Of a DNA stretch of 64,000 nt, positions 13,373-63,118 are shown piece after piece. A model generated the notes under the pieces. It saw nothing but the letters and a program-made list of their open reading frames with translations, searched no databases and had not been told where the DNA came from. A program made the translations under genes and the position numbers. The stretch comes from Pseudoprevotella muciniphila (GTDB lineage Bacteria; Bacteroidota; Bacteroidia; Bacteroidales; Bacteroidaceae), in NCBI RefSeq assembly GCF_003265305.2, contig NZ_CP033459.1, positions 1,364,001-1,428,000 on the forward strand. The letters are read 5' to 3'. Positions within the stretch are counted from its first letter, which is position 1. Each line of letters opens with the position of its first letter.

Positions 13373-14726
13373 AGAAAGTTGAATTGTTTTGTATTGACAT
13401 TTGCACCATGATGTTACCGATGGCTGTTGCTTCCTTTTCACAAGGCACCACACGGCAACCAGTCTTTTCTGCTGTCAAACGATTGAGCAAGACATTCTGC
13501 GAACCGCCGCCCACCACATAGATGGTATCTATTGTCTGTCCGCTGCATTGCTCCAACTTTGTCTTGACATCGGCATACTTCGCTGCGAGCGACATGCAGA
13601 CAACACGCATGAAGTCGCCCTTGGTTTCGGGTACCTGCATTCCGCCATTTTTGCAATAATCACGAATGGCTACCGACATGCTGCGCGGTTTGGAGAAACA
13701 CGGTGCATCCACGTCCACAATGCTGTCCACTGTACTCTTTTCCGCATCGGCAATGAGCGATGTGTAGGTATAATCCTCACCTGCTGCCTTCCATTCCTGT
13801 TCCAGGTTCTGGAGGAGCCAAAGCCCCGTGATGTTGCGCAGGAAACTGATGTGTCCGTTGGTAATGCCTTCGTTGGTGAAATCGGATGCCAGGGCGTCAG
13901 GTGTAACGATTGGCGACGGTGTGTCGATGCCCATAAGCGACCATGTACCACTAGAGATGAAAGCCCAGCCGTCGGACACTTCGGGCGATATGGAGGCTAT
14001 GGCGCTTGCTGTGTCGTGACTGCCCACGGTAACGACCTTTATCCCCGCAGGAGCACCTACTTCTTCTGCCACATCGGGCAGGAGTTCGCCGAGAATGGTT
14101 CCGGCTGGCGCAATCCTTTGCATGATGCCAATAGGCAGTCCAAGGCGACTGAACACCTCTGCGTCCCATTCCTGCGTGGAAGGATTAAGCATCTGCGATG
14201 TCGTGGCGATGGTGTATTCGTTCGCCGCCACGCCGCAGAGGTAGTAGTTGAATAGGTCGGGCATGAACAGCAATTTGTCCGCCACTTCGAGCGCCACATC
14301 GCCACGTTCCTTCATCGCCAAAAGTTGGAAAACGGTGTTGATTTCCATGAACTGATTGCCAGTCAAGGCAAAGAATTCTTCTTTCGGAATGGATTGGAAA
14401 GCCTTGTCAAGCATGCCTGCGGTACGAGCGTCGCGGTAGCACACAGGATTGGCAAGGAGCGAGCCGTTGCGGTCAATCAGTCCGAAGTCCACACCCCAAG
14501 TGTCGATACCTATGGAAACAATATCGTCATACTTTGAGAATGCCTTTTTCAGCCCTGTCTTGAGTTCTTCAAACAAGGCAAGGAAATCCCAGTGGACTGT
14601 TCCGCCGAGTGTTATCTGACGGTTGGGGAAGCGATGCACTTCTGTAAGCGCGATGCCCGAAGGCGTGCTTTCTCCCACAATGACACGCCCGCTTCCTGCA
14701 CCGAAATCTGCTGCAATATATTTCAT
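13371..14726 (-). CDS. fucK: L-fuculokinase (rhamnulokinase-like FGGY kinase)
   Basis: 451-residue sugar kinase of the FGGY/RhaB type: phosphate motif ADFGAGSGRV at residues 5-14, SIGIDTWGVDFG, FALTGNQFMEINT, VGSHDTASA and SSGTWSLMG, then the C-terminal ATP-binding VVGGGSQN. By sequence it is closer to rhamnulokinases, but its place between fucA and fucP indicates phosphorylation of L-fuculose to L-fuculose-1-phosphate. It starts 22 bp after the fucA stop. The substrate is inferred from the operon. Confidence 0.88.
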   Translation of the reverse strand: MKYIAADFGAGSGRVIVGESTPSGIALTEVHRFPNRQITLGGTVHWDFLALFEELKTGLKKAFSKYDDIVSIGIDTWGVDFGLIDRNGSLLANPVCYRDARTAGMLDKAFQSIPKEEFFALTGNQFMEINTVFQLLAMKERGDVALEVADKLLFMPDLFNYYLCGVAANEYTIATTSQMLNPSTQEWDAEVFSRLGLPIGIMQRIAPAGTILGELLPDVAEEVGAPAGIKVVTVGSHDTASAIASISPEVSDGWAFISSGTWSLMGIDTPSPIVTPDALASDFTNEGITNGHISFLRNITGLWLLQNLEQEWKAAGEDYTYTSLIADAEKSTVDSIVDVDAPCFSKPRSMSVAIRDYCKNGGMQVPETKGDFMRVVCMSLAAKYADVKTKLEQCSGQTIDTIYVVGGGSQNVLLNRLTAEKTGCRVVPCEKEATAIGNIMVQMSIQNNSTF

Positions 14727-14748
14727 GTAAAAATACGCATTATGATGG

Positions 14749-15381
14749 TTACTTTCCCAGGAACGTGTGTTCGATGTCTGCCACTTCTTCCGGCGTGAGC
14801 ACGGTATGACGGAAACCGCTGCGAAGGACTATCTCGCAAGCCATTTCAAGGAACTCTGCCTTCTCTATTGCCGCATTGAAATCCTTACCTACAAATACCT
14901 GTCCATGCTTAGCGAGGAGCACAGAATCATGGTCTTTCATGGCTTCCACAACGGCATGAGCCAATTCGGGCGAGCCTGGACGATAATAAGGGATGACAGG
15001 CACTTCCTTGCCCACATGGCATGGTAGTTCTGCCGTCACGTTCAGATTCTCTGGTTTGGGATCCATGCAGGCAATAGTTGTGGCACAAATGCTTTGGCAA
15101 TGAAGCACCACATTCACATCGGGCCTGTTTTTCAGAATTGTGAGGTGGAAGCCACTCTCCATCGACGGACGCACACCGTTGAGCGACTGTCCTGTCTCAA
15201 TGTCGCAAATCGCCACTTGGTCTTCACGCAGTTCCGGAATCCACGACCCTGTGGCAGAAACGAGCGCCACATCGCCTACGCGCCACGAGAGGTTGCCGCT
15301 CGAGCAACGTGTCAGACCATGATCACCGACCTTGCGGGCCGCAGCCACGAATGCACTGATTTGTTCTTTACTGATGTTCAT
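14749..15381 (-). CDS. fucA: L-fuculose-1-phosphate aldolase (class II aldolase)
   Basis: 210 residues, class II aldolase/adducin family. Seen are GLTRCSSGNLSWR (substrate phosphate loop), SMESGFH (catalytic Glu region), VVLHCQS and LAKHGQVFVG (zinc His). In the second motif the usual HxH zinc pair reads H-C-Q. I believe such HxQ forms also occur in Bacteroidetes FucA-like proteins, so this is not evidence of inactivity. The reaction splits fuculose-1-phosphate to dihydroxyacetone phosphate and lactaldehyde. The gene lies between fucI and fucK. Confidence 0.88.
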   Translation of the reverse strand: MNISKEQISAFVAAARKVGDHGLTRCSSGNLSWRVGDVALVSATGSWIPELREDQVAICDIETGQSLNGVRPSMESGFHLTILKNRPDVNVVLHCQSICATTIACMDPKPENLNVTAELPCHVGKEVPVIPYYRPGSPELAHAVVEAMKDHDSVLLAKHGQVFVGKDFNAAIEKAEFLEMACEIVLRSGFRHTVLTPEEVADIEHTFLGK

Positions 15382-40209: not shown

Positions 40210-43200
40210 TTATTTTATGACAACCTTACGTCCGTTATTGATATAGACACCGCGCTGAGTAGGCTGGTTATTGAGTTTTCGCCCTTCAATGGTGTACCAT
40301 ACATCCCGAACAGGACTTGCTTTCACGCCATTCAGACCGGTTGAAATCTCACCAAGTCCGCTGCCCATGTGGTCTTCATCCACAATAACCATACGGTTGG
40401 TCGGAGAAACTGTTGGATTATACAGGTCTTTCATGAGTACAGAACTGTGTACGCGGAAGTATGCGCGGTTTGCTCTGGTATAGCCGGGATTTTGTGTCTG
40501 AACGAAGTAGCCGTTGCTCAAGCCGAAGGAGATGAAACCGTCTGCATATTCGTCTCCATTCATCACTACAGATGGGCGACCTGATACGTAATAAGGTGTA
40601 TAATCCCACTCGCCGGAATCCTGTTGGAAGTATTTGCGGGCAACCGAAACCTTAAGCGGATTCGAAGCAGAGTCAGTTAAATAAGTTTCTTGCGTTACTG
40701 TTTCCCAGAATGGCCAGACGTATGTAGGCTCTACACAGGGCACGAGGATGTTGCCGTGGTCGGTGTGGTTGTCATGGAAATCATGACGAGCTTTAATTTC
40801 ACCAATGTCCGTACCCCATTCCTGTATGAGGTCGAAGATATCAATCCACTGGCGGCAGTGCCAGTCTTCAATATGTGCTAAACCATAGCCCCATGTTACA
40901 CCAAGTTCTGATTGTGGTAGGGTATTCTTTTCGTTTCCGCAATAGACAGTATCTCCCTTAACATAGGATACACCTTTAATCGTAATGTCTACATCTGTTA
41001 CATATTTGTGGGTACAAGGTACAAAGCGATAGTAAAGTAATTTATGGAGACCATCTGAACCAATCTCTGTTTTATCATTAATTTTAGAGTAATTGGGAGT
41101 AACCCATTGCACACCAGTCGGATTGCCGAGCAACGTCCTCAGATAACCTGTACCCGCTTCACAAGCCTCAACCCAATTTATAGCAGCAGGAATGGTGAAT
41201 CTATTAAATCCTGCTGAACAGCGATAGGGCCTTCCAGAACTACTTGTCCAATAATCGTATTTCTTTACGGTAATAGGAGCTGTAACTTCATACTTCTTTT
41301 TACCATCACTACCCTTATCTGGTGATGCTCCGGTGCCAACAGCTTCATATAAGGAGGTGCCATCAGTTTTAGCAGCCCACTTTTTATAATAACCTATTGG
41401 GACAGTAACCGTTTTACTGAAGTCAATTGTGATAGGATTACCTGCACGGTCTCTCATGTTCAGCAAGTCATATTCCTTTATCTCATAATCTGTGCCTGCA
41501 TCATTCCATACGGCAATCTGACGCCATCTGGCAGTATGGTCGTTGAAATCGAGCCAGGGCTTGCCTGCCATGTCTCGCAGGTTTTCGTCTGAGTCGAACG
41601 TCAGCAAACGGCTGTGGATATTGACACGGGTCAGACTGGTTGGAGGATCAGTCACTCCTGGACTGCCAACCTCTACACCAAATTTCTGTGGCACTGTCTT
41701 TATCAGTTTGGCAATCTCCCCGTAGTCAGCATAGAGCGGCATAAGATAGATGGCTGGTTGTGTGTAAGCAAACAACATGCCTTCATCCGGCGGCAGGATG
41801 GCATCTTCAACTTCCATCGTTGCAATCTTGGGTACATCGTCATGATTTTCATTGTCGAAATATTGGTGAGCCGTGCGTGGGAACACATGCTGCGCGCCAT
41901 GTACGGTGCTGTCGTTTGGATCTATATAGAAATCAATGGTAGGTGTCCACAGCGTTTTGCTTTCACCCATGTTGTTCGTTGTATTAGAGGAAGCCCAAGT
42001 GTCAACCGTACCGCCGTGGGAGGGTTTCAACACATAACTATCTAATGTCCAAGACGTGCTGGCTACCCACCAGGGAGCTTTCGAATAAGTGTAAGTGCCA
42101 CCATCCTTGCTGGTGTAATGGCCGTAATTCGGTTTGGTATATTCTTTGGTCAGATCGAACTTCACGCGATACTCATGATGACGATATTCCTTGCTGAACA
42201 GACCTAATATTGGCAGAAGTTGTTCATTCTCATCGATGCCATGTACATAACGCTCTCCACAACTCAAAGGCACAATGATGCGCACGCGATGGGTAGAATC
42301 AGTATCGAAGGGCCGACCGTCCGAAATGATACGAGGAGGAACTTTGGCATTAAACTCTACAGTAACGTCTGTCCCGTCCTCGTAGAACGAGCGATAACCC
42401 AAAAAGAGTCCATTGGAATTGACAGGATTCTCGGGGGCAGCATCTGTTCCTGCCACAAAGGGAATATAAGAGATGTTGTTTTTAGCAAATGCATATTGAC
42501 CAATGCTATCAATGTGAGTAGGCAAGTCGAAGCGTCCACCCGCACCCAGGTTGTTACCATAGAAAGCATAACTCCCTATCTTTTTCAGACTTGCAGGGGG
42601 AAGGAATGTACTAATGTCGGCACCCTCGAAAGCGTTGTCGCCAATTCGGGTTAGCGCCATGGTTTCGCCAGTAGGATCGCCACCAGATGCCACGAAAGAA
42701 AGGTCGGTGAGTGAGGTGCACTCGTAGAATGCACGGTCGGAAAGTTCCTGAATGCTAGGACTTATTATCACTTCTGTAATATTGTGGCACTGAGCAAAAG
42801 CACCCTTGCTTATTTTCTTCACCAATGGTGTCTTGTTCATATCCACTTTCGTGATATTATCCCAACCTTGGAAACAACGCTCGCCGAACTCGCGGAACTT
42901 GGCTGAATTTATCACCTGATATATGGAGTCGTATTGCGCGTACGACATGGCATAATGACCAAGGGATTCAATGTTATTGTTGGCTACCCATTCCTCGTCA
43001 GTGCAGGTTTCGCCGATGAAAGGATATACATTGCTGCCCTTGTGGAACGAAATTTTCTTGGGAGCGGAGAATCCCGTCCTGCGCAGACCGCTGTCGCCGA
43101 TATAGGTGATGCCCTTCGGCAAGATGAAGTGCGTGTGCTCCACATCACTGAACGCACCGAAGTCGATGCCGACCACTTTGAGGATAAGGTGACGGCCTTT

Positions 43201-44019
43201 ATACGTTGCGCCTAATTCATTTTCGCTATCAGCGAATTCCTGGTCCAGCATAATGAAGCTGGGAATGGTAATCGTCCGGCTTCCACCCGGCACGTTCGCA
43301 TAGCTTGCCGCATTCTCTGCAGCTGTCTCACTACAGAATGTGGGTGTCAAGTACATACCGGTAATAAAAGACTCTTCATAGGACTCATATTCCGGTGAGT
43401 CTCCACTTTCCTCTGCTTGGATCTTATTGCGAACGTTAGTCAACTGACCTGGAGTGAGACCCTTGCCAACCACAACGTAGCCACCAATGAGTTCACCATT
43501 GTGAAAACCGACCGTTCCATTTGGCCTTAAATCCGGATGGTTAGTTCCTCGCCCTTGCCACTCTTCGTCTGGAGTGCCATTGGCTGTGCCGGTACGCAGC
43601 ACGGTGAAATACACGTCTTCTTCCACACCGCCTTCACCAATAGGCTTGAAACCGCCCAAATAAACACGGGTAGGTGCATCATGAGTAAAGTAGCCTGTGC
43701 TGTTGCAATAGTCATCCTTAAAGATGGCACGATAAGGAGTGGTCAGACAGAACTGATCTTTATTCGGGTCTTCTGCTATTCCTGAGCCAGCCAGCGAGGT
43801 GGAGGTCCAAGTCGGCGACACAGAAGCCCTGATTACAAGACCATGACCACCGCCATACAGAGAGTCTTCACCCGCAGAAGTTTTCGGGTTTGCATAAGGA
43901 ACAGCGGAACCTAAATTCTCATAATAAGCACGATTCTTCACTGTCTCTTGCGCTGCAACCTGAAGCACCGTTAAATTGCCGAGAAAAAGGCAAAGCAAAA
44001 TGAGTAATGTCTTTTTCAT
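40210..44019 (-). CDS. BspA-like leucine-rich-repeat surface protein with T9SS-like tail
   Basis: 1269 residues from the ATG at 44019 (another in-frame ATG is at 44025). Signal peptide ends VAAQ (about residue 24). The central region (roughly 250-560) has LRR_5/BspA-type repeats, for example LVKKISKGAFAQCHNITEVI, IQELSDRAFYECTSLTDL and LKKIGSYAFYGN. A long beta-rich region follows. The C-terminus WYTIEGRKL...RGVYINNGRKVV resembles the sorting tails of the other secreted proteins here. It is probably a cell-surface adhesin or binding protein, followed in the operon by the 69-residue protein. Confidence 0.87.
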   Translation of the reverse strand: MKKTLLILLCLFLGNLTVLQVAAQETVKNRAYYENLGSAVPYANPKTSAGEDSLYGGGHGLVIRASVSPTWTSTSLAGSGIAEDPNKDQFCLTTPYRAIFKDDYCNSTGYFTHDAPTRVYLGGFKPIGEGGVEEDVYFTVLRTGTANGTPDEEWQGRGTNHPDLRPNGTVGFHNGELIGGYVVVGKGLTPGQLTNVRNKIQAEESGDSPEYESYEESFITGMYLTPTFCSETAAENAASYANVPGGSRTITIPSFIMLDQEFADSENELGATYKGRHLILKVVGIDFGAFSDVEHTHFILPKGITYIGDSGLRRTGFSAPKKISFHKGSNVYPFIGETCTDEEWVANNNIESLGHYAMSYAQYDSIYQVINSAKFREFGERCFQGWDNITKVDMNKTPLVKKISKGAFAQCHNITEVIISPSIQELSDRAFYECTSLTDLSFVASGGDPTGETMALTRIGDNAFEGADISTFLPPASLKKIGSYAFYGNNLGAGGRFDLPTHIDSIGQYAFAKNNISYIPFVAGTDAAPENPVNSNGLFLGYRSFYEDGTDVTVEFNAKVPPRIISDGRPFDTDSTHRVRIIVPLSCGERYVHGIDENEQLLPILGLFSKEYRHHEYRVKFDLTKEYTKPNYGHYTSKDGGTYTYSKAPWWVASTSWTLDSYVLKPSHGGTVDTWASSNTTNNMGESKTLWTPTIDFYIDPNDSTVHGAQHVFPRTAHQYFDNENHDDVPKIATMEVEDAILPPDEGMLFAYTQPAIYLMPLYADYGEIAKLIKTVPQKFGVEVGSPGVTDPPTSLTRVNIHSRLLTFDSDENLRDMAGKPWLDFNDHTARWRQIAVWNDAGTDYEIKEYDLLNMRDRAGNPITIDFSKTVTVPIGYYKKWAAKTDGTSLYEAVGTGASPDKGSDGKKKYEVTAPITVKKYDYWTSSSGRPYRCSAGFNRFTIPAAINWVEACEAGTGYLRTLLGNPTGVQWVTPNYSKINDKTEIGSDGLHKLLYYRFVPCTHKYVTDVDITIKGVSYVKGDTVYCGNEKNTLPQSELGVTWGYGLAHIEDWHCRQWIDIFDLIQEWGTDIGEIKARHDFHDNHTDHGNILVPCVEPTYVWPFWETVTQETYLTDSASNPLKVSVARKYFQQDSGEWDYTPYYVSGRPSVVMNGDEYADGFISFGLSNGYFVQTQNPGYTRANRAYFRVHSSVLMKDLYNPTVSPTNRMVIVDEDHMGSGLGEISTGLNGVKASPVRDVWYTIEGRKLNNQPTQRGVYINNGRKVVIK

Positions 44020-44248
44020 ACACATAAATTATTTGATTATTGTTTATTTTCTGATTTTCAGATTGTGATTTGTATCAGTCAATCTATTATAATTTTTAAT
44101 TAATATTTCAACACAATCTCTCCGTTAATCTCTCAATCTATCTGTGATAAATAATAAGAATCAACAAGAAAGGCCGACAAGGTTTCTAGAGAAAAGCCTG
44201 AAACAGGATTTAACCTGATTAAACAAGCATACTCCAACTTGTAATTTG

Positions 44249-56091: not shown

Positions 56092-56099
56092 TACTTTTG
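56092..56099 (+). promoter_or_regulatory. -7 box of the IS30 transposase
   Basis: TACTTTTG, 8 bp before the ATG at 56108. Confidence 0.55.
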
Positions 56100-56107
56100 T
56101 GTTGCAT

Positions 56108-57055
56108 ATGAAATATAAACAGCTAACCTCGCAGCAAAGGTACACAATCCAGAACGGATTAAAGCAAGGATTGACCAAAAAGATGATCGCCGCCCTCATA
56201 GAGGTGAACGAAAGCACCCTTTACAGGGAAATCCATCGAAATGGCGGTGCCAAGGTTTATAATGCAGAAAAGGCACAGCGCGAAGCAGACCGCCGCAAGA
56301 CGCGTCTTCAGAAACCGCGAAGATTCACACACGCCCTTAAGCGGGAAGTCATAAGTCTGCTGCAAAAGAAATGGTCGCCCGAACAGATATGCGGGTATAT
56401 AAAGAGACAAGGGCGCGAATGCGTCTCCCATGAAACAATATACGCATTCATCAGAACCGACAGGAAGTGCGGAGGGATGCTTTGGAAACTCTGCCGTCAC
56501 GCAATGAAGAAGCGACGGAAGACAGACAAGGGAAAACGGATTCCCATAAAAGACCGCGTGAGTATAGACCTTAGGCCGGAAGAGGCAGACGGCACGCGTT
56601 TCGGAGATTGGGAAATGGACACCATAGTCGGTAAGGATGGGAAAGGAGCGCTAGTTACACTCTACGAGAGACGTACTGGATATGGGATGGTCAAAAGGCT
56701 GCCTGATGGAAAAGAGGCAAAAGGCGTGGAAGAAGCAGTATACAGAATGTTGATTCCTTACAAGAAACAAGTACTCACTATTACTACAGATAATGGAACA
56801 GAGTTCGCCAGGCATAGTCAATTGGCAAAGAAACTCTCCACGAAAATCTTTTTTGCACACCCTTATAGCTCATGGGAAAAGGGAGGTGTAGAAAACTACA
56901 ACAAACTCGTCAGACAATATATACCTAAGGGAACGAATTTAGAACAATACACAGACAAATATCTTATGGAAGTACAAAAGCAAATTAACAGCAGACCAAG
57001 AAAAAAACTCAACTTTAATAACCCAAAAAACGAATTTTACAAACTTTTAGACTAA
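56108..57055 (+). CDS. IS30-family transposase
   Basis: 315 residues from the ATG at 56108. N-terminal helix-turn-helix (TSQQRYTIQNGLKQGLTKKM), then WSPEQICGYIKR and the DDE catalytic triad: D171 in DWEMDT, D228 in TTDNGTEF and E262 in GGVENYN, spaced as in IS30 enzymes. The frame is intact, so the element may still be active. It recognises the inverted repeats and joins strands during transposition. Confidence 0.95.
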   Translation: MKYKQLTSQQRYTIQNGLKQGLTKKMIAALIEVNESTLYREIHRNGGAKVYNAEKAQREADRRKTRLQKPRRFTHALKREVISLLQKKWSPEQICGYIKRQGRECVSHETIYAFIRTDRKCGGMLWKLCRHAMKKRRKTDKGKRIPIKDRVSIDLRPEEADGTRFGDWEMDTIVGKDGKGALVTLYERRTGYGMVKRLPDGKEAKGVEEAVYRMLIPYKKQVLTITTDNGTEFARHSQLAKKLSTKIFFAHPYSSWEKGGVENYNKLVRQYIPKGTNLEQYTDKYLMEVQKQINSRPRKKLNFNNPKNEFYKLLD

Positions 57056-59694: not shown

Positions 59695-60363
59695 TTATTT
59701 CTCCAGTTCAATACCCACAAGCATGCCGTCGTAACTGCCGAGGAACGAACTGAGCGCCTTGATGGAGGCACTGCCCGTCAGTCCGCCTGCTATGCTGAGC
59801 AGATTCTTGAGTTTGTCGCCCTCGATGAGCAGACTGATGCCTTTCATGCTCTGTGCCACATGTAAGTTCACCTTCTTGATTTTCATCACGTTGAGCGTAA
59901 TCATCTTCTTGTTGGTGTCCAGCGTATAGGTCCCCGAAATAGGTTTGTTTGCTATTCTTCCGCTGAATGTCTTGTCGGAATTGAACTTGAAGGTGCAGGA
60001 ATTACTATTGAAGCCTGCGGCGGAGAGTTTTTGGTCCAATTGTCGTTCTATTTCGTTGGCAGAAGCCGTACCTGCCGCCTTTTTAAGCATATTCTCTGAT
60101 TCGAACACACAACTTGAGCCGGCATAGTGCCAGTCGCCTATAATACTGTTCTCCGACACTTTACCACTGCCAAGAATGGTGTTGAGGATGTTTCCGAAAC
60201 CTAAATTGCCGTTCGAAGAAGTGGCAGGCTTACTGGTTGTCCCCACTTTCGAGGTTGGTGTAGTACTGCCTTGGTTGAATACGTTTCCAAATTGACCGAG
60301 CCCTTGTGTACCCGTGCAGGAACACAGCGTCAACAAAGCGGCTGCCATCATAATTTTTTTCAT
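59695..60363 (-). CDS. DUF4923 lipoprotein
   Basis: 222 residues; lipobox LTLCSC followed by a Gly/Ser/Thr-rich linker (GQFGNVFNQGSTTPTS). The body IIGDWHYAGSSCVFESENMLKKA...QLDQKLSAAGF...KFNSDKTFSGRIANKPISGTYTLD matches DUF4923, a lipocalin-like family of Bacteroidetes. The role is unknown, probably periplasmic ligand binding. It lies downstream of the P-type ATPase-like gene on the same strand. Confidence 0.82.
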   Translation of the reverse strand: MKKIMMAAALLTLCSCTGTQGLGQFGNVFNQGSTTPTSKVGTTSKPATSSNGNLGFGNILNTILGSGKVSENSIIGDWHYAGSSCVFESENMLKKAAGTASANEIERQLDQKLSAAGFNSNSCTFKFNSDKTFSGRIANKPISGTYTLDTNKKMITLNVMKIKKVNLHVAQSMKGISLLIEGDKLKNLLSIAGGLTGSASIKALSSFLGSYDGMLVGIELEK

Positions 60364-60396: not shown

Positions 60397-63081
60397 CTAT
60401 CTCAAAAATCCCAACGAGAGAACTATCATACTTGCCACTACGATCAAGATCCAGTCAATCCACCCCATTGGGGCTGTGCCGAACAGATCGCCGCCGAAAT
60501 TGACAATCATCACCTGTACGACCACTATGATTGCTGCCACGAGCAAGAGTCCTGTGCATTTTCCGAGCCCTGCGAGAAGGCCTTTGTCGCTGTAAAGTGT
60601 GCGTGAGTTGAAGAGGTGCATCAGCAGGAAGAACACAAAAAGCGTGGAAAATGCGCTTTCTTCTATGCCGTTGAGGTGGGCGAACGCAGTTGCTTCAGCG
60701 CGTGCAGACCAATCGAGCAGATTGCTGCCCACTTCGAACCAAGAAAAAGCAAAGAGCAAGCCGACAAGCAGTACGAAGCCCACGGCGGCAAAGGCGCCTA
60801 TGCGCATCCACATGCCGCGCGTTACCAGTGGTGTGTCTTTTTTCTTCTGTGCCTTTCGTCTCATGATGCCTTGCGAAGCAGGAAGCGAAGCCAGGGCAAT
60901 CGCGCCGAAAGTGTCCATTATCAGGTTGACCCACAGCAGTTGGATTGCATTAAGCGGACTATGCACAGAGAGCACTGCACTCAACAGTATTACGGCTCCA
61001 ATCAGAATGGATACTGACAGTTGGAACATGATGAACCGGCGGATATTCAGATAAACACTCCTTCCCCACATCACAGCCTTAGCAGCACTCTGGAATTCTC
61101 CATTGAGCAGGGTGATGTCGCTGGCATCCTTCACCATCTGCGGACTACTACCACTTGTCAGACCCACGTCCGCCTTCTCCAGCAGACCTATATCTGCCAC
61201 TGTGGTACCCGTAACAGCCACAGTGTGTCCCACCGCCTTGAGCAGTACTGCGATGCGTTCTTTGTCAGAAGGCAGAGCGTCGCCCACCACCCTAACATGC
61301 TCCAGACGGGACTGCAATTCGTCATCGCTCAAATCGCGAAGGTCAGAAGCACTGACTGTTTCTCCGTCTGAAAGATGACTGATATTTTCTGCCAACACTT
61401 TTGCCACGGCAAGCGGTTTCTGAGTAACTATTTTCACCTCGACTCCCGCCTCTTCAAATTCTGCAAGCGTAGCCAGCACATCGTCGCGCTCGTGGAGAGC
61501 AATGCTCATATAGCCTTGGAATGTAAGGTGTCCAGACACACACGTCTCGCCGTCAATGCCTTTTTCTGTCGCGTTGAGTTCCTGACAGGCGAAACCCACA
61601 GTGTAAAGACCATTCTGCTGCGCTGTGAGAATTTCCTGCTCAAGCACTTCGCGCTGGCTACCGTCTGCCGTATCAGCCGACATGGACAGCACAGTCAAGG
61701 CGTCGCCACAAACATACACTATTCTTGCACCAGGCACCTCACCGGAGAACACTTCAGTGGCTGAATAGCGCCGCTCGGAGGAATAGAGCAGACGGTCCAC
61801 TACGAGTGCGTTCAGGCGAAGCATTTCATAACTCTTGTCGGTCGATTTCTTCCATAGCCATTTCAGAAGCGCGGCTTCTGTAGGATCGCCCACAGCCGAA
61901 ACCTCACTGTAGTCTGAAATGTCGAGCCATGCCATTGTGTTGACCGCAATGCCTTCCGAAATAAGCCGGGAGGATTTGTCCGTGCCGAGTTGCTGACCAT
62001 CAATACCCAATATGTGAGATGCTGCAACACTCCTGTCATCAGAGAGTAACCAGTCGTCTGCCTCTACGCATACAACGGAGCAGCGCCCCATCGTTTCGCA
62101 TGCAGCCGACTTCCGCACGAGGATAGAAGCCTTGCGCAACTGGCGCATGCTCAGGGCGAGTGCCAGTGTACTGCTCATTGACAAGCCTTCGGGAACAATG
62201 CAAACCACCATGGTGAGCGCCAAGAGCAAGGTATTCACGAAGTACGACCAAAACTCCAGATTGGCACTTGCGCCATCACTCAGGAAATGCACCGTTCGCA
62301 GCACTACAATCGCCACAGCCAGAGCGTAGCCCACATAGTTCATCAGACGCTCAAGACGCGCTGTGCGCTGGTTCAGTGGACTCTGATTGCTGTTATCTAT
62401 GGTTGGATGCACATACACACCATGGTATTGTGTGCGGTTACCTACGAATTGCACACGGAAGATGCCGTGTCCGCGAAGTACCTTACTGCCACGAAGCACG
62501 TATTGAGTGGCTGTAGATTCCTCACCTTCCCGGGGAGACTGTTTTGCTACTTTCTCACCACCGCTGAGTTGCGACTCATCGACAACGAGCCTCACTGCCT
62601 CGAGCAGTTCGCCGTCTGCCGGCACTTCGTCGCCTTCACTGATGAACACGAGGTCGCCCACTACGATGCTTCTGCGCTCTGTTTCCGTGAGACAGCCGTT
62701 GCGAAGCACCTTAACCGGCGCACGGTCGTCTGCCTTGGCTATTTTCCTGAAAGCACATTCGCAGCGGTATTCCAGCCAATAGCCCACCCCGACAACGAGG
62801 AGGATGGCAACAAGGATGCCGAGTGGCAAAAGAAACACGCCTGCATCGCCAGAGCGGTTGAAGCCACCACTCATCGGTGTGGAAAAATATTCCAGAGCGG
62901 CAAGGACGAAACTGGCAAGAAGTGCCAGAAGCATCAGGCGTACAATAGTGTCGTTAAGTTTTTCTGCGAGTCCTTTCAGCGCAAAGTGCCGATGAAAGGG
63001 CGTTACGATGTTCATGCCGTATTTGCGGCGGTTTTCCTCCACCTGCTCCTTACGCAATCCCTTGTAATGTTTATTCTTCAT
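60397..63081 (-). CDS. P-type ATPase-like protein lacking catalytic motifs (pseudo-ATPase)
   Basis: 894 residues with the layout of PMCA-type cation P-ATPases. It keeps M4 VPEGL (296-300), ILVRKSAA (320-327), GDPTEAALL (398-406), LPSDK (603-607) and M6 WVNLIMDT (717-724). The catalytic motifs are changed: CSDKTGT reads CVEADDW (338-344, Glu340 instead of the phosphorylated Asp), TGES reads SGGE (173-176), KGAPE reads CGDAL (458-462), TGD reads TQK (553-555) and GDGVNDA reads GTTVADI (625-631). The frame is intact over 2.7 kb. Its role is unknown; a regulatory or channel-like function is possible. Confidence 0.85.
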   Translation of the reverse strand: MKNKHYKGLRKEQVEENRRKYGMNIVTPFHRHFALKGLAEKLNDTIVRLMLLALLASFVLAALEYFSTPMSGGFNRSGDAGVFLLPLGILVAILLVVGVGYWLEYRCECAFRKIAKADDRAPVKVLRNGCLTETERRSIVVGDLVFISEGDEVPADGELLEAVRLVVDESQLSGGEKVAKQSPREGEESTATQYVLRGSKVLRGHGIFRVQFVGNRTQYHGVYVHPTIDNSNQSPLNQRTARLERLMNYVGYALAVAIVVLRTVHFLSDGASANLEFWSYFVNTLLLALTMVVCIVPEGLSMSSTLALALSMRQLRKASILVRKSAACETMGRCSVVCVEADDWLLSDDRSVAASHILGIDGQQLGTDKSSRLISEGIAVNTMAWLDISDYSEVSAVGDPTEAALLKWLWKKSTDKSYEMLRLNALVVDRLLYSSERRYSATEVFSGEVPGARIVYVCGDALTVLSMSADTADGSQREVLEQEILTAQQNGLYTVGFACQELNATEKGIDGETCVSGHLTFQGYMSIALHERDDVLATLAEFEEAGVEVKIVTQKPLAVAKVLAENISHLSDGETVSASDLRDLSDDELQSRLEHVRVVGDALPSDKERIAVLLKAVGHTVAVTGTTVADIGLLEKADVGLTSGSSPQMVKDASDITLLNGEFQSAAKAVMWGRSVYLNIRRFIMFQLSVSILIGAVILLSAVLSVHSPLNAIQLLWVNLIMDTFGAIALASLPASQGIMRRKAQKKKDTPLVTRGMWMRIGAFAAVGFVLLVGLLFAFSWFEVGSNLLDWSARAEATAFAHLNGIEESAFSTLFVFFLLMHLFNSRTLYSDKGLLAGLGKCTGLLLVAAIIVVVQVMIVNFGGDLFGTAPMGWIDWILIVVASMIVLSLGFLR

Positions 63082-63110: not shown

Positions 63111-63118
63111 CAAAAATA
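63111..63118 (-). promoter_or_regulatory. -7 box of the P-type ATPase-like gene
   Basis: TATTTTTG on the minus strand, 29 bp upstream of the start at 63081. Confidence 0.5.

Follow-up and report, generated by a model that had tools for sequence, protein, structure and literature searches.

A P2B-type P-type ATPase homologue of Pseudoprevotella muciniphila in which most catalytic motifs are replaced

P-type ATPases are defined by a phosphorylated Asp. In the genome of Pseudoprevotella muciniphila we found an open reading frame for a full-length homologue of the P2B (PMCA-type) pumps, in which this Asp is replaced by Glu and most of the other catalytic motifs are also missing. It is highly probable that the product is catalytically dead but maintained. 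The explanation that we favour as a whole, with slightly more confidence than doubt, is that of a P2B-derived pseudoenzyme, folded and non-pumping, which may serve as a cation-responsive regulator.

Gene and family assignment

The gene lies in the window, i.e. the whole stretch of 64,000 nucleotides that was analysed (contig NZ_CP033459.1, positions 1,364,001 to 1,428,000), and coordinates refer to this window unless stated otherwise. The source genome is a single contig of 2.92 Mb.

60397..63081, minus strand: predicted catalytically dead P2B/PMCA-type P-type ATPase homologue, 894 aa (TIGR01517, Pfam, AF2 fold)

The frame extends over 894 codons from ATG to stop, with no stop codon or frameshift inside. 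The initial annotation had described an uninterrupted full-length P-type ATPase homologue without giving a strand, and this description holds for the minus strand. The best NCBIfam model was TIGR01517 (PMCA type), with a score of 398.9 bits, which is below the cut-off of 507. The Pfam models E1-E2_ATPase and Cation_ATPase_C matched above cut-off, and the Hydrolase and Cation_ATPase models, which correspond to the P and N domains, scored below it. Relatives came mostly from Bacteroidales; the nearest canonical pumps of the same genus were 40-42% identical to the protein, and the best identity anywhere was 41-42%. Full-length homology, a P-type fold and ten membrane helices place the protein in the P2B family by descent and fold, yet it fails the enzyme features by which the family is defined: the Asp of DKTGT, TGD, GDGxND and KGAPE are all missing.

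Loss of the catalytic motifs

Motifs were read from an alignment of the protein with 123 distinct homologues, mostly from Bacteroidales. The following replacements were found:

62554..62565, minus strand: SGGE where the actuator domain normally has TGE, residues 173-176 (one-residue ambiguity in the alignment)
62050..62064, minus strand: EADDW for DKTGT, with Glu340 encoded by GAG at 62062-62064 (DKTGT in 123/123 homologues)
61696..61710, minus strand: CGDAL for the nucleotide-binding KGAPE, residues 458-462 (alignment)
61486..61497, minus strand: LHER for DPxR, residues 529-532 (alignment)
61417..61425, minus strand: TQK for TGD, residues 553-555 (alignment)
61192..61209, minus strand: GTTVAD for the Mg2+-binding hinge GDGTND, residues 625-630, last Asp kept (alignment)

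The replaced motifs are close to invariant in the relatives. DKTGT, TGE and TGD were each present in all 123 aligned homologues, as was DPVR or DPIR, and GDGTND was present in 122, the remaining one having GDGAND. DKTGT was also found in 28 further P2B copies of the same genus and in four copies on viral contigs, a count that leaves out two C-terminal fragments not covering the motif (L167 and L168 are weak matches, at ~23% identity).

The change of DKTGT to EADDW, and the Glu codon, had been given exactly in the initial annotation, which further claimed that every catalytic motif is replaced. This can be upheld for DKTGT, KGAPE, TGD and GDGTND, and DPxR can be added to them, but the loss of TGE is less certain than the others, because the alignment is ambiguous by one residue: in the ungapped alignment the catalytic Glu is Gly, or alternatively it is shifted by a one-residue insertion (SGGE). 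Moreover, some catalytic residues remain, namely the Thr of TGD, the Lys of DK, the second Asp of GDGxND and the Arg of DPxR. In the N domain Glu402 is present, and the changes of Phe to Tyr433 and of Lys to Arg438 are both mild. Local frameshifts were considered as a source of the odd motifs and ruled out, because the substitutions are in frame and the neighbouring residues are conserved.

The ion site in the membrane

The initial annotation stated that the ion-site helices are kept. The residues concerned are the following:

62179..62196, minus strand: M4 ion-site motif VPEGLS, residues 296-301, PEG kept, next Pro lost (alignment)
61009..61011, minus strand: Ser691, at the position of the M5 ion-site Asn of relatives (alignment)
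60910..60927, minus strand: M6 ion-site motif NLIMDT, residues 719-724, all residues kept (alignment)

The statement is correct for M4 VPEGL and M6 NLIMDT; the Ca2+-site residues Glu298 of M4 and Asn719 and Asp723 of M6 are present. It does not extend to the second Pro of PEGLP, which is Ser, or to the M5 Asn (in FQMTIN), which is nearly invariant among the homologues and is Ser here. The ion site is therefore partly altered.

Predicted structure

The AF2 model is a complete P-type fold: the A, N and P domains are present, as are ten membrane helices (pLDDT 80.3, pTM 0.74). The values for a canonical relative modelled from the same rows were 81.5 and 0.73, respectively. In a Foldseek search with the model the best E-value was obtained with ACA8, and the highest TM-score among the listed matches was 0.83, with SERCA2b in the E1-2Ca2+-AMPPCP form. 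ACA8 was also the best sequence match in the PDB (8qmp, E 1.3e-83). The input alignment consisted of 45 canonical relatives, so that all other rows were canonical pumps, and the E1-like shape of the model is no evidence of a locked state, because these rows shaped it.

Pattern of divergence

At the alignment columns that are at least 97% conserved, the protein retained the residue in 141 of 236, i.e. 40% were changed. The first P-domain segment had the lowest retention (5/16), and the second had about half (33/67). Columns with a catalytic or nucleotide-binding role, listed by one of us from knowledge of SERCA, were retained in 10 of 31 cases as against 131 of 205 for the others (Fisher p = 0.0014). 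Relative to the identity normal for the clade, the P domain was the most eroded region (ratio 0.40-0.42) and M6 the best preserved (0.75).

Neutral drift was simulated by mutating a canonical relative without selection, insertions and deletions not being counted. When drift was continued to 50% amino-acid identity, a mean of 17.5 stop codons accumulated (minimum 10 in 30 runs); at 70% identity the mean was 10.0, and at 80% it was 6.2 (minimum 1). If between half and all of the divergence were neutral, about 10-17 stops would be expected, as against none in the actual gene. Identities to a canonical relative at the three codon positions were 0.53, 0.65 and 0.34, third positions being saturated, and the GC content by codon position broadly resembled that of the neighbouring genes.

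The nearest canonical pumps are 70-78% identical to one another, and a MetF-like protein of the source genome is 68% identical to its counterpart in the congener G016. Set against these values, the best identity of the dead copy indicates strong acceleration. The absence of stops in so divergent a gene argues for selection on the protein during much of its divergence, which does not prove selection at the present day.

A recent pseudogene produced by point mutation was considered and is unlikely: there are many multi-substitution losses, no homologue with DKTGT is close, and there is no stop where neutral drift would have left about 10-17. The case of close homologues with DKTGT and a change in this strain only was thus not encountered. 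The initial annotation had proposed a maintained non-pumping protein and not a decaying gene, with conserved EADDW-type relatives as support. The open frame and the presence of a canonical pump in the genome are in line with it, but such relatives were not found: the homologues all carry DKTGT, although none of them is close.

Distribution and descent

So far the dead form is known from one genome only. No second dead copy was found among 58 genomes of the same genus, 399 of the family and 295 of the order, in a genome collection that covers about half of GTDB species. Motifs were read in part of the family-level matches, so that independent losses elsewhere are possible. When the second P-domain segment (residues 518-660) was used as a probe at E <= 1e-25 against the family and order genomes, only the source genome was reached. 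A scan of GTDB contigs and another of viral contigs, both of which may leave out records very near the source genome, yielded no dead copy either. Three viral contigs (L172, L173 and L174; IMG/VR, 187-195 kb) encode P2B-like Ca2+-ATPases of 820-865 aa with 28-29% identity, in which DKTGT and the other motifs are intact.

The initial annotation had suggested looking for a canonical paralogue, and the source genome has one such pump, 35% identical to the dead copy:

G000:C1:2256454-2259165, minus strand: canonical P2B pump L002 (all motifs present)

In trees the end branch of the dead copy was very long, 2.2 with FastTree, where the median was 0.2, and 10, i.e. at saturation, with IQ-TREE under C20. 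FastTree and a quick IQ-TREE run grouped the dead copy with a pump clade found only in the genus. Descent from this clade did not hold up, since the AU test did not reject its grouping with the clade that contains its own paralogue (p = 0.45). Sisterhood with the G016 copy alone was rejected (p = 0.006). The test cannot separate the two clade placements because the end branch is so long. The branch of L002 is itself longer than those of most relatives (0.71 with FastTree, 1.2-1.6 with IQ-TREE); judging from these branch lengths, the whole lineage, and not the dead copy alone, may evolve fast.

Genomic neighbourhood

The following features flank the gene:

59695..60363, minus strand: DUF4923 lipocalin-like lipoprotein, 33 bp downstream of the dead-pump gene and co-oriented with it
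63111..63118, minus strand: TATTTTTG, candidate Bacteroidota-type -7 box preceding the start codon (by consensus match alone)

Two -7-like boxes precede the start codon, and a UbiA-family (menA-like) gene is located upstream. A DUF4923 gene also follows the canonical P2B pump in the congeners G016 and G022. This suggests that the dead-pump locus once held a working pump. As evidence of orthology the adjacency is weak, because it was seen at no more than three of the loci searched, the family is widespread in the genus but mostly not beside a P2B pump, and in the DUF4923 tree the window copy does not group with the pump-adjacent copies of G016 and G022. In both of these genomes DUF4923 is present twice: one copy follows the canonical P2B pump, and the other lies elsewhere and belongs to a separate clade (L195 and L196 were compared with L182 and L190). 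The open-access literature searched yielded nothing relevant on DUF4923.

Further genes in the region were noted. Just past the window end, two genes (L130:9584-14121, plus strand), whose products resemble a DNA methylase and a helicase, look by eye like a type III restriction-modification pair, and a gene with a Fic-like HPFMEGNGR motif comes next (14219-15091). Within the window, an ORF at 56099-57055 (plus strand) resembles by eye an IS30-type transposase, with no Pfam match at 1e-10. A product of 1271 aa, with leucine-rich repeats of the BspA type (Pfam LRR_5), is encoded at 40210-44025 (minus strand).

Possible function

ATP-driven pumping by the 894-aa protein appears very unlikely, because neither the nucleophile nor the Mg2+ site is left and most of the phosphate-contacting motifs are gone. 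No aspartyl phosphate would be formed, hence no ATP-driven pump cycle would take place, and P2B pumping in the source genome would presumably be left to the separate canonical gene. With Glu298, Asn719 and Asp723 kept, a divalent cation could still be bound in the membrane, and the resting state of the protein would be E1-like, with its cytosolic side open. Nucleotide may still bind to the N domain, where the changes are mild. The cytosolic head would then act as a cation-responsive regulator, possibly in concert with the canonical pump or with the lipoprotein encoded by the co-directional DUF4923 gene. That the protein is such a regulator and not a transporter is put forward tentatively. The wider reading, a bacterial P2B pump turned into a constitutively non-pumping cation-binding regulator or channel and kept beside a working paralogue, can be held with a little less reserve, though still as a possibility. 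The losses of the M5 Asn and of the second Pro of PEGLP, and the occurrence in one genome only, count against the favoured explanation. The long terminal branch and the erosion outside the catalytic sites would also fit relaxed constraint.

Relaxed constraint is at the centre of the alternative that a redundant P2B copy was inactivated and is on its way out, its frame still open by chance. The gene is a singleton with a very long branch and broad erosion, and a canonical pump remains elsewhere in the genome, all of which would be expected of a decaying gene. On the other hand, several motifs were lost by multiple substitutions without one stop or frameshift where the simulation expects about 10-17 stops, the losses are concentrated at catalytic sites (p = 0.0014) while M6 is strongly kept, and confidence in the predicted fold equals that of the control. 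We regard decay as rather unlikely. Even less can be said for a working pump with Glu as the nucleophile, which is most improbable. Glu is chemically close to Asp, and the catalytic residues that remain could be counted in its favour, but KTGT, the Asp of TGD and the first Asp of GDGxND are gone, and so is the actuator Glu in the best alignment. In classical pump mutagenesis, replacement of Asp by Glu at the phosphorylation site abolishes the phosphoenzyme. The D409E mutant of C. elegans CATP-1 was used as a pump-impaired allele, perhaps only partly inactive according to its authors (PMC11631496).

The other two alternatives also assume a maintained protein. A role as regulatory partner, in a heteromer with either the DUF4923 lipoprotein or the canonical P2B pump, would agree with the position of the co-directional DUF4923 gene, with the like adjacency in G016 and G022, and with the rather long branch of the genome's own canonical pump. 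The rarity of this adjacency, the location of most DUF4923 genes of the genus away from P2B pumps, and the DUF4923 tree speak against such a role, to which we give about the same low weight as to decay. It is slightly less likely again that the protein acts as a passive channel or leak for cations, in which the gates would be unlocked without phosphorylation and the PEGL/NLIMDT path would let Ca2+ or a different cation follow its gradient. The kept Glu, Asn and Asp of M4 and M6, with M6 as the best-kept region, would suit a leak, whereas the M5 Asn is lost, a second gate or pore feature was not identified, and the large cytosolic head would be superfluous. Of the three we would favour the regulator, with the partner and the leak channel close behind.

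Comparison with known systems

No description of a bacterial P-type ATPase pseudoenzyme was found in the open-access literature searched. If maintained without the Asp, the protein would reveal the capabilities of the ion-binding scaffold in the absence of ATP, which are currently a matter of debate for TMEM94/ERMA; the weight of the finding is limited by its resting on a single gene in one genome.

With the P2B Ca2+-ATPases (Arabidopsis ACA8, mouse PMCA2 and the canonical pumps of Bacteroidales) the 894-aa protein shares the domain order, the ten predicted helices, PEGL and NLIMDT. In contrast to them it is without DKTGT, KGAPE, DPxR, TGD and GDGxND, its TGE is altered and its M5 Asn is lost. 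A pump-independent function was proposed for C. elegans CATP-1 (Ruaud and Bessereau 2007, as cited in PMC11631496), but this precedent differs in that the catalytic Asp is present and that the function, inferred from mutant alleles, is debated.

The nearest functional parallel found would be TMEM94/ERMA, a protein of the eukaryotic ER with P-type architecture, which has GSSANL in place of GDGVND and lacks TGES (PMC13322241, PMC12134183). One group reports that it binds AMPPCP and has no ATPase activity (PMC12134183). According to another group the Asp, which is kept in the sequence DKQGI, is necessary for Mg2+ transport (PMC13322241), and the groups disagree on whether TMEM94/ERMA transports Mg2+ with ATP (PMC12134183, PMC13322241). 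Compared by literature descriptions alone, the two proteins differ in that TMEM94/ERMA is eukaryotic and retains the Asp, which the bacterial protein has lost, and in that its M4 motif is PILPLL, unlike the PEGL of the bacterial protein.
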